64,000 nucleotides of DNA from Deltaproteobacteria bacterium GWB2_55_19 (lineage in GTDB: Bacteria; Desulfobacterota; GWC2-55-46). Shown piece by piece: positions 1-10,830 of this stretch (the stretch's first letter is position 1; each line of letters begins with the position of its first letter). The position numbers were made by a program, and so were the translations under genes. The stretch is taken from positions 152,981 through 216,980 of the forward strand of contig MGPQ01000012.1 in the NCBI GenBank assembly GCA_001797465.1. Reading direction: 5' to 3'. The notes under the pieces are model-generated. The model saw only the letters and a program-made list of their open reading frames with translations, was not told the origin of the DNA and did not search any database.

Positions 1-112
1 CCCCTGTATCATAGTCGATATGCTGACCGACTTCGTTAATTACGTTCTAATCCTGTACGCACATAATGGGAGGCGCAGGATGAGCAGTAAAATGGACGGG
101 AGGAACGGGATT

Positions 113-8066: not shown

Positions 8067-8291
8067 ATGTCTGCGGAAAGCATATCTGGCGACATGACCA
8101 CCGGAGAAGTAACGACGAGGTGGCCGGCTACCAAGGCGGTATTCTCGAAGCATTTTGGCTCAGGGTGCTTCACATGTCCCGCATTCGGCGGGGAGCCAAT
8201 ATCAATGGCGTGCGCGATGCACTCAACCGACGTCAACATGTTCGTGGGCGAGCTGAAAGAGGCCGCGAAGTTGGACGAGGCGAACGCCTAA
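8067..8291 (+). CDS. DUF1858 / redox-disulfide domain small protein
   Basis: 74 residues with a strong ribosome site (AAGGAGG, 10 bases before ATG). It resembles the small DUF1858 domain often associated with hybrid cluster protein: a GCFTCPA motif (CxxC near residues 34-37), an acidic/small-residue stretch, a further Cys, then a His-Ser-x-Asp turn (HSTDVN) and a final helix. Cytoplasmic; probably a thiol-redox or metal-linked protein. It has its own promoter, palindrome and terminator, so it is a single-gene unit. Adjacent to the sigma-54 micropeptide locus, it hints at a redox-stress neighbourhood, but no hybrid cluster protein gene is in view. Confidence 0.75.
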   Translation: MSAESISGDMTTGEVTTRWPATKAVFSKHFGSGCFTCPAFGGEPISMACAMHSTDVNMFVGELKEAAKLDEANA

Positions 8292-8322
8292 ATATTCAAC
8301 AGGTCATCCGGATAACCTCTTA

Positions 8323-8355
8323 GGGGCAGGCTGAATAAGCCTGCCCCTTTCATTT
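8323..8355 (+). terminator. Rho-independent terminator after the DUF1858 gene
   Basis: A perfect 10-bp stem GGGGCAGGCT / AGCCTGCCCC with a GAATA loop, followed by TTTCATTTT. Confidence 0.88.
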
Positions 8356-8387
8356 TACCTCTCTGCCCTTATCCTTCTGATGTAAAC

Positions 8388-8404
8388 GTTTCACGCTGTG
8401 GAAC
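8388..8404 (+). promoter_or_regulatory. enhancer-like site 1 (GTTTCA-N5-TGGAAC)
   Basis: An imperfect inverted repeat about 180-190 bp upstream of the -24/-12 promoter. It shares the GTTTCA...TGRAA pattern with the sites at 8426, 8492 and (reverse orientation) 9371. The distance suits an upstream activator sequence for a sigma-54 activator. Inferred, not proven. Confidence 0.5.
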
Positions 8405-8425
8405 ATTGTTTCATGGACGAAAAAC

Positions 8426-8442
8426 GTTCCATTTCTGAAAAT
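8426..8442 (+). promoter_or_regulatory. enhancer-like site 2
   Basis: GTTCCATTTCTGAAAAT differs from site 3 at one base, forming a 17-bp direct repeat spaced 66 bp from it. A related half-match GTTTCA lies just upstream (8408-8413). Confidence 0.5.
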
Positions 8443-8491
8443 ACGCATGATGGGCGATTTTATGGGCTTTTTTAAGATAGGGCGGTTCTTT

Positions 8492-8508
8492 GTTTCATTT
8501 CTGAAAAT
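8492..8508 (+). promoter_or_regulatory. enhancer-like site 3
   Basis: GTTTCATTTCTGAAAAT contains the perfect inverted repeat TTTCA-TTTC-TGAAA. It ends 72 bp before the -24 box and overlaps the left arm of the long hairpin at 8503. Confidence 0.55.
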
Positions 8509-8546
8509 ATAATCAATGGAATGGACAGCCCATTGATTATATTTTC
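8503..8546. repeat. perfect 17-bp inverted repeat upstream of the sigma-54 promoter
   Basis: GAAAATATAATCAATGG (8503-8519) and its exact complement (8530-8546) flank a 10-base spacer. No T-run follows on either strand, so it is not a normal terminator. A DNA cruciform, a binding site for another protein, or a bend site are possible. Confidence 0.8.
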
Positions 8547-8580
8547 AATAAAAACAAATAGATACGATAGCTAAGTTCTT

Positions 8581-8596
8581 TGGTACGGTTTATGCA
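8581..8596 (+). promoter_or_regulatory. sigma-54 (-24/-12) promoter of the micropeptide operon
   Basis: TGGTACGGTTTATGCA matches the consensus TGGCACG-N4-TTGCW at all but two positions and keeps the invariant GG and GC dinucleotides with a 10-bp gap. Start of transcription near 8608, 37 bases before the first micro-gene. Enhancer-like repeats lie 70-190 bp upstream and a sigma-54 activator gene lies downstream (9457). Confidence 0.82.
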
Positions 8597-8644
8597 TTGT
8601 ATAGAATGCAAGCTGGTGGACACAAAGTTGGGGAGGTGGATAAA

Positions 8645-8737
8645 GTGACAACAGGGGCTCTTGAGATGTTGATAGAGGCATCGGTCATCATAATAGCAGG
8701 GATCGTGGGCGTAGGCCCCCTCGTCGTTGTAGCTTAA
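8645..8737 (+). CDS. micropeptide B: 30-residue membrane peptide (GTG start)
   Basis: First gene after the -24/-12 promoter. A good ribosome site (GGGGAGGTGG) lies 4-5 bases before GTG. The product VTTGALE... enters a Val/Ile/Gly-rich helix for the rest of its length and carries a second Glu at residue 11. Its start aligns with micropeptide A (MTTTGIFE). It has no Cys or charged tail, so probably one inner-membrane helix. Too short for ordinary gene callers. Unknown function; I infer membership of a paralogous family with A, C, D and E. Confidence 0.6.
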   Translation: MTTGALEMLIEASVIIIAGIVGVGPLVVVA

Positions 8738-8758
8738 TCAGTGAGAAAGGAGACAAAT

Positions 8759-8851
8759 ATGCAGAGGTTCAAGTTAGGGACGATTGAAATAATAGCGATA
8801 TTCATGAACATCCTGGCGGCGACGCTCATATCGAGGCTTGCGCTGTCATGA
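8759..8851 (+). CDS. micropeptide C: 30-residue membrane peptide
   Basis: 21 bp after B, with GAAAGGAG 6 bases before ATG. The product has a short basic start (MQRFK), LGTIE, then about 17 hydrophobic residues ending in an Arg-containing tail (ISRLALS). The Glu at residue 10 occupies the same place at the helix entrance as in the other peptides. Its stop overlaps the ATG of D (ATGA), so translation is probably coupled. Confidence 0.62.
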   Translation: MQRFKLGTIEIIAIFMNILAATLISRLALS

Positions 8852-8991
8852 GGGCGCTGACCGGGCACATAAGGACGCTGGAGAAGATGATGAAGATACG
8901 GATATTTTGGATGGAGGCGGTATCACTCGGCCTCGGCATACTCGTCCTTGTCTCTATGACCCTTCTGCAATCAGGCGGTGTCATCGGTTGA
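8848..8991 (+). CDS. micropeptide D: 47-residue membrane peptide
   Basis: Starts inside the stop of C (ATGA overlap). An amphipathic, basic leader (MRALTGHIRTLEKMMKIR) leads to FWMEAVSLGLG and an Ile/Leu/Val helix, ending in QSGGVIG. The leader is the longest in the set; the helix-entrance Glu is again present (residue 22). An alternative start at Met14/15 would make it the same size as its neighbours. No homologue recognised. Confidence 0.58.
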   Translation: MRALTGHIRTLEKMMKIRIFWMEAVSLGLGILVLVSMTLLQSGGVIG

Positions 8992-9080
8992 CGCTACGCG
9001 AAAAAGTATTCATCCTTTAACGAGGCCTTAATATTGGCCATGTATAATGGTCACTGTAACAAACGAAGGAGGTAAATATC

Positions 9081-9164
9081 ATGAGACAGAGATTCTTTCA
9101 GATAGTAGAAGCGGCCGCCCACCTGGCGATAGTGACAGCTATAATAGCGGCGGTGGTGAGATAG
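9081..9164 (+). CDS. micropeptide E: 27-residue membrane peptide
   Basis: A strong ribosome site (AAGGAGGT, 8 bases before ATG) stands 90 bp after D. The product has a basic start MRQRFF, then QIVEAAAHLAIV and an Ala/Ile/Val helix ending in Arg. Glu10 matches the family position. A longer frame overlapping in another register (from 9047) merely reads through the ribosome site and lacks one of its own. Last micro-gene before the terminator. Confidence 0.62.
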   Translation: MRQRFFQIVEAAAHLAIVTAIIAAVVR

Positions 9165-9173
9165 AGCGTTTAC

Positions 9174-9196
9174 GCGGGCCTGACGACTGGGCCCGC
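9174..9196 (+). other. GC-rich hairpin after micropeptide E
   Basis: GCGGGCC / GGCCCGC with a 9-base loop, 10 bases after the stop codon and without a T-run. It could protect the 3' end of the short mRNA or act with the terminator at 9255. Confidence 0.5.
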
Positions 9197-9254
9197 TTGC
9201 ATAAGACTCCGCAATCAATCCCATCAACTCCCCCTCCTCAAAACGCTCTCCTCT

Positions 9255-9297
9255 AAACCCCTGTAAGGGTCAGGCCTTACAGGGGTTTTTCTTTTTT
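9255..9297 (+). terminator. Rho-independent terminator of the micropeptide operon
   Basis: A perfect 14-bp stem AAACCCCTGTAAGG / CCTTACAGGGGTTT, six-base loop, then TT-C-TTTTTT. It separates the micropeptide transcript from the activator gene. Confidence 0.92.
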
Positions 9298-9370
9298 AAA
9301 AATAGTTATTTCCCCCGACCTTGGCAAAAATACCTGATTTTTGTACATATTGCTCTAAAATGCAACAAGT

Positions 9371-9386
9371 GTTCCTCAAATGAAAC
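9371..9386 (-). promoter_or_regulatory. enhancer-like site 4, before the activator gene
   Basis: Read on the minus strand this is GTTTCATTTGAGGAAC, sharing its first nine bases with site 3. It lies 9 bp upstream of the -35 box of the activator promoter, a position that could let the activator (or another protein) control its own gene. Confidence 0.4.
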
Positions 9387-9394
9387 ATTTGTCG

Positions 9395-9423
9395 TTGATT
9401 TTACAGGGGAGGAGCCATATAAT
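9395..9423 (+). promoter_or_regulatory. sigma-70 promoter of the sigma-54 activator gene
   Basis: TTGATT (9395-9400), 17 bp, TATAAT (9418-9423); start near 9430 and CGGAGGT ribosome site before ATG 9457. Confidence 0.75.
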
Positions 9424-9456
9424 ATACGCAGAGTGCATCTTTCCGGAGGTCCGTAA

Positions 9457-10830
9457 ATGGAAGCGTCTGTCATAAACAACAACGAAGATAACCTCATAAG
9501 CTTGAATAGCGACGCGATCCTGAACAGCATCGCCGACGGGGTAGTGGTCATAGGGCTGAATCACAAGATACTCTTTGTGAACAGGGCGGCAAAGGAGATA
9601 CTGGGGAGGGCCGGGGCCGACGACCTCCTTAACTGCGCGAAGTGCAGTGACGTCATGGGCCACTCTGCATGCACATTCGGTTGCCTGATAAACACAACCA
9701 TCAAGACTGGAGAGCATTTATATAACTACGAGGCTGTTTTCGAGAACGGCGACAGGAAGGTCACGCTCTCCATCAACACCGCGCTCCTTAAGGACAAGAA
9801 CGACAACGTCATCGGCGGCATAGAGATATTCAGGGACGTTTCTCTTATAAAGGAATTGAAGGACGAGCTCAAGGGAAAATACTCCTTTGAGAACGTCGTC
9901 GGCAAGGACCACAAGATGCACGAGGTCTTCGAGCTCCTTAAGGAGGTCGCGCCGACAAAGGCGACGGTCCTCATAGAGGGCGAGACCGGGACAGGCAAGG
10001 AACTCATCGCGAACGCCATACACCACAACTCACCGCGCTCTAACGGGCCTCTCATAAAGGTCAACTGCGCGGCGCTCTCCGAAGGCCTCCTTGAGAGCGA
10101 GCTCTTCGGCCACGTGAAGGGGGCCTTCACAGGCGCTATCGCCGACAAGCTCGGCAGGTTCGAGATGGCCGACGAGGGGACGATATTCCTGGATGAGATA
10201 GGAGACATAACCCCGCACACGCAACTTCGGCTTCTGCGCGTCCTCCAGGAAGGCGAGTTCGAGCGCGTAGGCGGCACTAAGACCATAAAGGTAAACGTCC
10301 GCGTCATCGCCGCCACGAACAAGGACCTGAAGGCCGAGGTAAAGAGGGGGGAGTTCAGGGAAGACCTCTACTACAGGCTTAAAATAGTCCCCATACAGCT
10401 CCCCTCGCTCCGCGAGAGAAAAAAAGACATACCTTTGCTCGTCAGGCACTTTATCGAGAAGTTCAACCGGGAGATGGGCATGGGGATAACGAACGTCTCC
10501 CCCAACGCGATGGAACTGCTGATGGAGTATGACTACCCCGGGAACATCAGGGAGCTTGAGCACGTGATCGAGCACGCCTTCGTGCGTTGCCAGGGCAAGA
10601 CGCTCTCCGCCGAGCACTTCCCGAAGGACATACAGGAGCTCAAGGGCAGGGGTGCGCTACGCGGCGCAATAAGGGAGCCCGAGCCATTAAAGGCGTTCGA
10701 ACGGGAGGTAATACTTAACGCACTTGATGAAACCGGCTGGAAGTACAGCGAGTGCGCCCTCATCCTCAAGATGAGCAGGACGACCCTCTGGCGGAGGATG
10801 AAGGAATTGAAGATAGAGAAGGGGAGATAG
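9457..10830 (+). CDS. PAS-AAA+-Fis sigma-54 activator with clustered cysteines
   Basis: 457 residues in the usual enhancer-binding order. A PAS sensor domain spans about 15-135; the AAA+ domain (about 150-370) has Walker A GETGTGKE, the sigma-54 contact loop GAFTGA, Walker B GTIFLDEIGD and the arginine-finger region; a C-terminal Fis-type helix-turn-helix (about 405-455) ends SRTTLWRRMKEL. Inside the PAS domain are Cys60, Cys63, Cys72 and Cys76 (NCAKC...ACTFGC), which could bind a metal or Fe-S cluster or form disulfides. No receiver domain and no adjacent kinase, so sensing is probably direct. Placed just after the sigma-54-driven micropeptides, it is their likely activator. Confidence 0.92.
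   Translation: MEASVINNNEDNLISLNSDAILNSIADGVVVIGLNHKILFVNRAAKEILGRAGADDLLNCAKCSDVMGHSACTFGCLINTTIKTGEHLYNYEAVFENGDRKVTLSINTALLKDKNDNVIGGIEIFRDVSLIKELKDELKGKYSFENVVGKDHKMHEVFELLKEVAPTKATVLIEGETGTGKELIANAIHHNSPRSNGPLIKVNCAALSEGLLESELFGHVKGAFTGAIADKLGRFEMADEGTIFLDEIGDITPHTQLRLLRVLQEGEFERVGGTKTIKVNVRVIAATNKDLKAEVKRGEFREDLYYRLKIVPIQLPSLRERKKDIPLLVRHFIEKFNREMGMGITNVSPNAMELLMEYDYPGNIRELEHVIEHAFVRCQGKTLSAEHFPKDIQELKGRGALRGAIREPEPLKAFEREVILNALDETGWKYSECALILKMSRTTLWRRMKELKIEKGR

Follow-up and report, generated by a model that had tools for sequence, protein, structure and literature searches.

The window analysed here, a stretch of DNA of 64,000 nucleotides, carries a few very short reading frames, each of which would encode a single hydrophobic helix. 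The locus raises the question of whether these frames are genes, what would switch them on and what their products could do in the membrane.

Short reading frames and the design of their products

An earlier note on this DNA had listed five single-helix frames with a ribosome site or a coupled start, and all five were found where it had placed them, on the forward strand. Peptide A (8645-8737; 30 aa, VTTGALEMLIEASVIIIAGIVGVGPLVVVA) has a single transmembrane (TM) helix and a GTG start behind the ribosome site GGGGAGGTGG, and is followed by peptide B (8759-8851; 30 aa, single TM, MQRFKLGTIEIIAIFMNILAATLISRLALS; ribosome site AAAGGAG). Peptide C (8848-8991; 47 aa, MRALTGHIRTLEKMMKIRIFWMEAVSLGLGILVLVSMTLLQSGGVIG) has a coupled start through an ATGA overlap with B, and peptide D (9081-9164; 27 aa, MRQRFFQIVEAAAHLAIVTAIIAAVVR) has the ribosome site AAGGAGGT. 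Peptide E (113-193; 26 aa, MTTTGIFELIANLAIIVTIVSAVFMP; ribosome site GGGAGG) is a D-like paralogue, and an alternative start at 80 would extend it to 37 aa. The peptides with similar beginnings are E and A, and not, as had been claimed, A and B. The flanking terminators were recovered as terminator-like hairpins with T-runs on both sides of the A-D cluster, one belonging to the preceding DUF1858 gene (8067-8291) and lying 5' of the cluster at 8322-8348, the other 3' of D at 9255-9288, both on the forward strand. A similar forward-strand hairpin, spotted by eye, lies 3' of E (233-256) and is followed by a T-run. Directly before the window (contig C12 near 152980), between a DUF3570 gene and E, a run of 40 N masks part of that interval.

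The organisms compared are uncultured 'Deltaproteobacteria' and related MAGs. The A-D frames are open in three congeners of the window's own genome (G000), with identities of the congener peptides to those of G000 of 63-83% for A, 60-80% for B and 74-100% for D. The order A, B, C, D is kept at all four congener loci, as are the ribosome sites and the B/C ATGA overlap; G002 and G004 start A with ATG where G000 and G001 have GTG, and a peptide similar to A is also present in G017/G022. Substitutions between G000 and G002 (32/26/62 by codon position) are heaped at position 3 (p = 9e-5), and the pooled pN/pS of A-D in the congeners is 0.34-0.49. B is the weakest of the four, with a pN/pS of 0.3-0.5 in most comparisons and, for the most closely related pair, a value exceeding 1 that comes from few changes. 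Used as a single query against 59 relatives, D was recovered at full length in the three congeners (74-100%) and through weaker matches in five further genomes. The translated search of relatives that had been set as a test returned conserved frames with synonymous drift, in matches that are not independent of one another. On the sequence evidence, A-E are well supported as real, conserved coding frames that have gone unannotated.

The set is bigger than had first been seen, with several loci per genome and two promoter types. In 74 of 82 distinct peptides a Glu or Asp falls between positions -6 and +3 relative to where the hydrophobic stretch begins; chance TM ORFs show this in 27% of cases and shuffled peptides in 40% (p = 3e-33 relative to chance TM ORFs, related sequences being counted at full weight), a result that bears out the entrance Glu noticed earlier as common to the peptides. 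Lys and Arg number on average 1.5-2.0 among the ten N-terminal residues and 0.3-0.7 among the eight C-terminal ones, a basic N-terminal bias that predicts an N-in topology. The short basic N-termini would, with moderate confidence, put the N-terminus in the cytoplasm and with it the entrance carboxylate at the cytoplasmic membrane face.

D-like peptides are present in at least ten family genomes with the Glu invariant, and this Glu is the sole invariant column among 18 D/E-like sequences; Asn, His or Ser often stands one turn beyond the carboxylate. The majority of the family's activator loci have a C-like peptide, and those aligned have an acidic residue (Glu or Asp) at the helix entry in 12 of 12 cases, plus an invariant Gly. 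The proposal of one family of five held for D and E, which together with the contig-10-type peptides are homologous (profile-profile probability 88%). It was marginal for B against D/E (29%) and was not supported for A and C, for which profile-profile comparison with D/E detected no homology, only a shared architecture.

As the earlier note had anticipated, no described family fits: the peptides have no significant relative in Pfam, NCBIfam, PHROG or PDB, the best database matches for E being insignificant (Ycf12, E=0.03; phrog_35977, E=0.06), and no matching description was found in the literature covered, which lay mostly outside subscription papers. A photosystem-subunit reading of the peptides was rejected. 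So was a type IV pilin-like reading built on the prepilin motif (G|F-x3-E) with a periplasmic part behind it, because the Gly-Glu distance varies and a C-terminal part is lacking. The D/E profile, run against 395 genomes of the phylum, matched in the family only, plus one pseudopilin gene, taken to be a chance similarity to the pilin N-terminus. At no more than about 50 aa, with a single hydrophobic helix and a conserved frame, the peptides share these features with stress-induced small membrane proteins of the YohP/PmrR/AcrZ kind.

The sigma-54 activator and its unit

The peptides had been described as neighbours of an activator, and a sigma-54-dependent activator gene with PAS, AAA+ and Fis-type HTH domains indeed lies downstream of D (9457-10830, forward strand). 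Four residues of its PAS domain (window 9457-9900), Cys63, His69, Cys72 and Cys76, are invariant, so that a metal or redox signal is possible and the domain is a candidate sensor of metal, heme or redox state.

A predicted sigma-54 promoter of the TGGYA type (TGGTACGGTTTATGCA; 8581-8596, forward strand) precedes A-B-C-(D). Upstream of it are activator-site-like repeats at 8388-8404 (GTTTCACGCTGTGGAAC), 8408-8424 (GTTTCATGGACGAAAAA, about -173 from the promoter), 8426-8440 (GTTCCATTTCTGAAA, about -155) and 8492-8507 (GTTTCATTTCTGAAAA, about -89). Another such repeat, at 9371-9385, stands before the activator gene and may serve autoregulation; repeats of this kind precede the activator gene at many loci. 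A long inverted repeat surrounds one activator-site repeat at window 8470-8555 in G000 and is absent from its congeners.

Among activator orthologues drawn from the family and the class, tiny TM peptides were found beside the activator at 17 loci besides the window. The family loci mostly have two to five tiny TM ORFs of varied sequence immediately upstream, and a few (G005, G008) have a single one. One strong sigma-54 element precedes the first peptide at all 18 co-directional activator loci, window included, and at most of the 18 it is accompanied by GTTTCA-N4-TGAAA-like repeats at about -179, -161 and -93 from the promoter; for the unit itself, the DNA of four congeners was aligned as well. 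In three genomes from a different family of the class (f8), a sigma-54-like promoter runs divergently from the activator and leads to a single 27-aa peptide built in the same way (MKAFETLVKAFGLVIGLFLVIGLTLTV or closely related sequences), the promoter at one such locus (L032) having been identified by eye and showing more mismatches. The activator locus of the class member G050 revealed no convincing tiny peptide, and distant Cys-PAS activators of the phylum lie mostly in other contexts with no consistent tiny peptide. One activator orthologue (G028, C37, 123530-124771) contains an in-frame TGA.

A -24/-12 promoter with upstream repeats beside an activator gene is the arrangement of a sigma-54/bEBP unit, and these observations strongly suggest that the activator switches on A-B-C(-D). 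The pattern TTTCA-N4/5-TGAAA occurs at 14 palindromic places in the window's own genome, nearly none of them with a tiny TM peptide or a convincing promoter, and no wider regulon emerged for the sigma-54 activator.

The response-regulator-type box

The second promoter type follows the pattern YTAAY-N6-YTAAY-N10-TATAAT. Before D it reads TTAAC-N6-TTAAT-N10-TATAAT (9017-9048, forward strand), in a DNA block that is nearly invariant in four congeners; before E (36-67, forward strand) it has one mismatch, CATAAT, at which G001 has TATAAT. The description of four frames in one operon is therefore only partly right: D lies downstream of the sigma-54 promoter but has its own promoter-like box. As a direct repeat of 11-bp period that overlaps the -35 region and ends about 10 nt before the -10, the box is of the OmpR-family (PmrA/CusR) type.

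The box is found before D in the congeners and before E in both G000 and G001, and it also precedes members of a seven-peptide array in G006. That array (contig C9; L019, reverse complement, 8298-9875) runs as seven consecutive tiny TM peptides from a dinB-like gene to a DEAD-box helicase gene, with at least four YTAAY-type boxes among them and a lexA-like gene nearby. Four tandem D-like peptides (MTKSKGILETAASLAVIVAVVAVSTLNFVM and relatives) face opposite-strand genes in G003 (C104; L104, 1254-1715), and tiny peptides with a box also stand shortly before a porin-like gene (L181) and before ABC transporter ATPase genes (L184, L218).

The criteria for box and peptide were chosen after the first examples, and the family scan and background test were made later with the pattern fixed. 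The scan of 30 family genomes returned 65 exact matches, against 0 for the reversed-pattern control. A TM ORF with a ribosome site follows 39 of 56 distinct boxes, the background rate of TM ORFs being 0.7% at random positions and 2.6% at other -10-like sites. The remaining 17 lack a qualifying peptide, some of them standing before a TlpA-like gene or PepSY-b561 and others before no evident target. When one mismatch is allowed, the window's own genome has only four boxes, each before a tiny TM peptide: those of D and E, one before three peptides of contig 10 (MTRIFETVASLAVIVTLVAVSASNLVM and two alike), and one before a 41-aa peptide of contig 5 that adjoins a sensor kinase and an NtrC-type gene. 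The box likewise precedes tiny peptides in the rest of the order. In family f8 it lies before a PepSY-cytochrome b561 operon, which in G058 includes an OmpR-type regulator.

Close orthologues of this OmpR-type regulator were found in 21 of the 30 family genomes, at 66-74% identity, with a fragment in G013. Boxes are present in all 21 genomes with the regulator, compared with 4 of the 9 without it (Fisher p = 9e-4, uncorrected for phylogeny). The five box-less genomes without the regulator are congeneric, and the sixth of that genus, G029, has both regulator and boxes. For the response regulator, the G000 assembly shows a 57% paralogue but no close orthologue. At most loci viewed the gene forms part of a cytochrome b561-regulator-kinase operon; a double YTAAY repeat lies upstream of this operon at 7 of 7 loci viewed and is missing at two paralogue loci, a pattern typical of autoregulation. 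The models closest to regulator and kinase are CzcR/CopR and CzcS/CopS, whose cut-offs are not reached, the NCBIfam bits of the regulator being 260.6 of 279.2 for CzcR/SilR/CopR, 186 of 330 for PmrA and 172 of 345 for QseB. Together these results strongly suggest that D, E and their paralogues are switched on by a CusR/PmrA-like regulator, whose gene accompanies those of a cytochrome b561 and a sensor kinase.

Possible roles and likeness to known systems

Regulation of the peptides by two dedicated regulators is strongly suggested by comparison of genomes, and the evidence on regulation speaks for a response to envelope or redox stress. Peptide E is located within a b561-SHP-DHC-thioredoxin-DUF3570-ApbE region, and the b561, DUF1924/SHP, DHC, thioredoxin-like and ApbE neighbours, with the CzcR/CopR-like class of the regulator, suggest the stress character. 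Genes for a cytochrome b561-diheme cytochrome fusion, DUF1924 (SHP-like) and DHC were seen upstream of the window (L003 1765-3944). Upstream of A-D the window has an RND gene, as do many family members, and the neighbourhoods of the peptides vary between genomes.

The reading that we favour, with slightly more confidence than doubt, is that A-E are inner-membrane peptides of an inducible envelope/redox-stress regulon that bind membrane partners. The sigma-54 activator would drive transcription of A-B-C(-D), and the b561-coupled response regulator that of D, E and paralogues. We infer a biochemical role as small inner-membrane proteins acting on membrane partners: the peptides might work in trans, packing among themselves or onto larger membrane proteins, possibly transporters, b-type cytochromes or sensor kinases, which could be stabilised or modulated under stress in the way thought for AcrZ, PmrR or YohP. 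The many paralogues would point to several partners or to dosage. A bolder proposal, offered tentatively and well short of an even chance, is that the Cys-PAS sigma-54 activator and the cytochrome-b561-coupled two-component system have as their main output varied 25-45-aa peptides with an entrance carboxylate, which would build homo- or hetero-oligomeric structures in the inner membrane for envelope or redox defence, a type of response not described so far.

The peptides could instead be type I toxin-like, as TisB, Hok, Ibs and Ldr, depolarising the membrane when induced and restrained by antisense RNA. Their size, hydrophobicity, tandem paralogues and stress-type promoters agree with this, antisense-checked peptides would explain the tandem copies, and one array, in G006, lies beside lexA- and dinB-like genes. 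Known type I toxins, however, have long structured leaders, and no such leader with a sequestered ribosome site was found here: with a median of 40 nt the predicted leaders are short, and their SD shows no systematic sequestration, 2 of 45 falling below 0.2 unpaired. An unsystematic look identified no antisense gene, and the control appears to be by dedicated activators, not repression, so a toxin role is considered unlikely. Leader peptides or uORFs regulating a downstream gene in cis might be suspected where a peptide stands ahead of a helicase, kinase, DnaK-like or ApbE gene, but terminator-like hairpins intervene after D and E, the G003 array faces genes of the opposite strand, and the TM helix with its carboxylate is conserved at the amino-acid level, which suggests a product acting in trans; regulation in cis appears highly improbable.

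Two further explanations tie the peptides to neighbouring genes. As subunits of a stress-induced electron-transfer complex (b561/SHP/DHC), comparable to small oxidase or photosystem subunits, they would suit the region around E and the b561 in the regulator operon; most box loci nevertheless have no adjoining cytochrome, and the number and sequence of the peptides vary widely between genomes, which makes this quite unlikely. The RND gene near A-D, shared by many family members, is what would be seen if the peptides were dedicated small subunits of the adjacent pump, as AcrZ is on AcrB. This seems very unlikely, as no RND end was seen within 3 kb in several genomes (such as G008, G012 and the divergent f8 loci), many D-like loci have no RND gene, and four or five different peptides would be odd for one pump.

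A set of peptides with many members across an uncultured family suggests a layer of envelope biology missed by gene calling, small membrane proteins usually being found singly and in model bacteria. The missed gene class can be traced through its regulation, with the strict box and the sigma-54 unit as genome-wide search keys for unannotated peptides, and the candidate response regulator and sensor kinase make the role of tiny stress-induced helices directly testable.

In size and in having a single helix the peptides resemble YohP and similar peptides of E. coli. To our knowledge that kind forms no regulated multi-locus family and has no dedicated activator, whereas the peptides described here are multi-locus, with predicted dedicated regulators. 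YohP itself is a hydrophobic single helix of 27 aa, made under starvation or stress, with no detectable catalytic activity (PMC12719787). The SHP-DHC-cytochrome b operons, in which cytochrome b is found with diheme cytochromes and a sensor kinase/response regulator, share with the present loci the cytochrome b, the diheme cytochromes and the two-component system, but tiny TM peptides go unmentioned in the part of that account drawn on here (PMC2909971). Type I toxins such as TisB, Hok, Ibs and Ldr are similar in size, hydrophobicity and tandem copies and differ from the peptides here, which have short, mostly accessible leaders and activator-type promoters. AcrZ is a 49-aa subunit of AcrAB-TolC. 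Like it, the peptides of the window are small helices encoded near an RND pump, but the RND association is not general and the peptides are shorter and multi-copy. PmrR of Salmonella is a 29-aa membrane peptide under PmrA. By its description it shares with the present peptides the tiny single-TM form and a response-regulator box with two half-sites and an 11-bp period. In K. pneumoniae the PmrA box reads CTTAAT-N5-CCTAAG, in Salmonella CTTAAG-N5-XTTAAT (PMC3973317), and the YTAAY box resembles it. The enterics have one such gene, whereas here there are several paralogues per genome and a separate sigma-54 unit.
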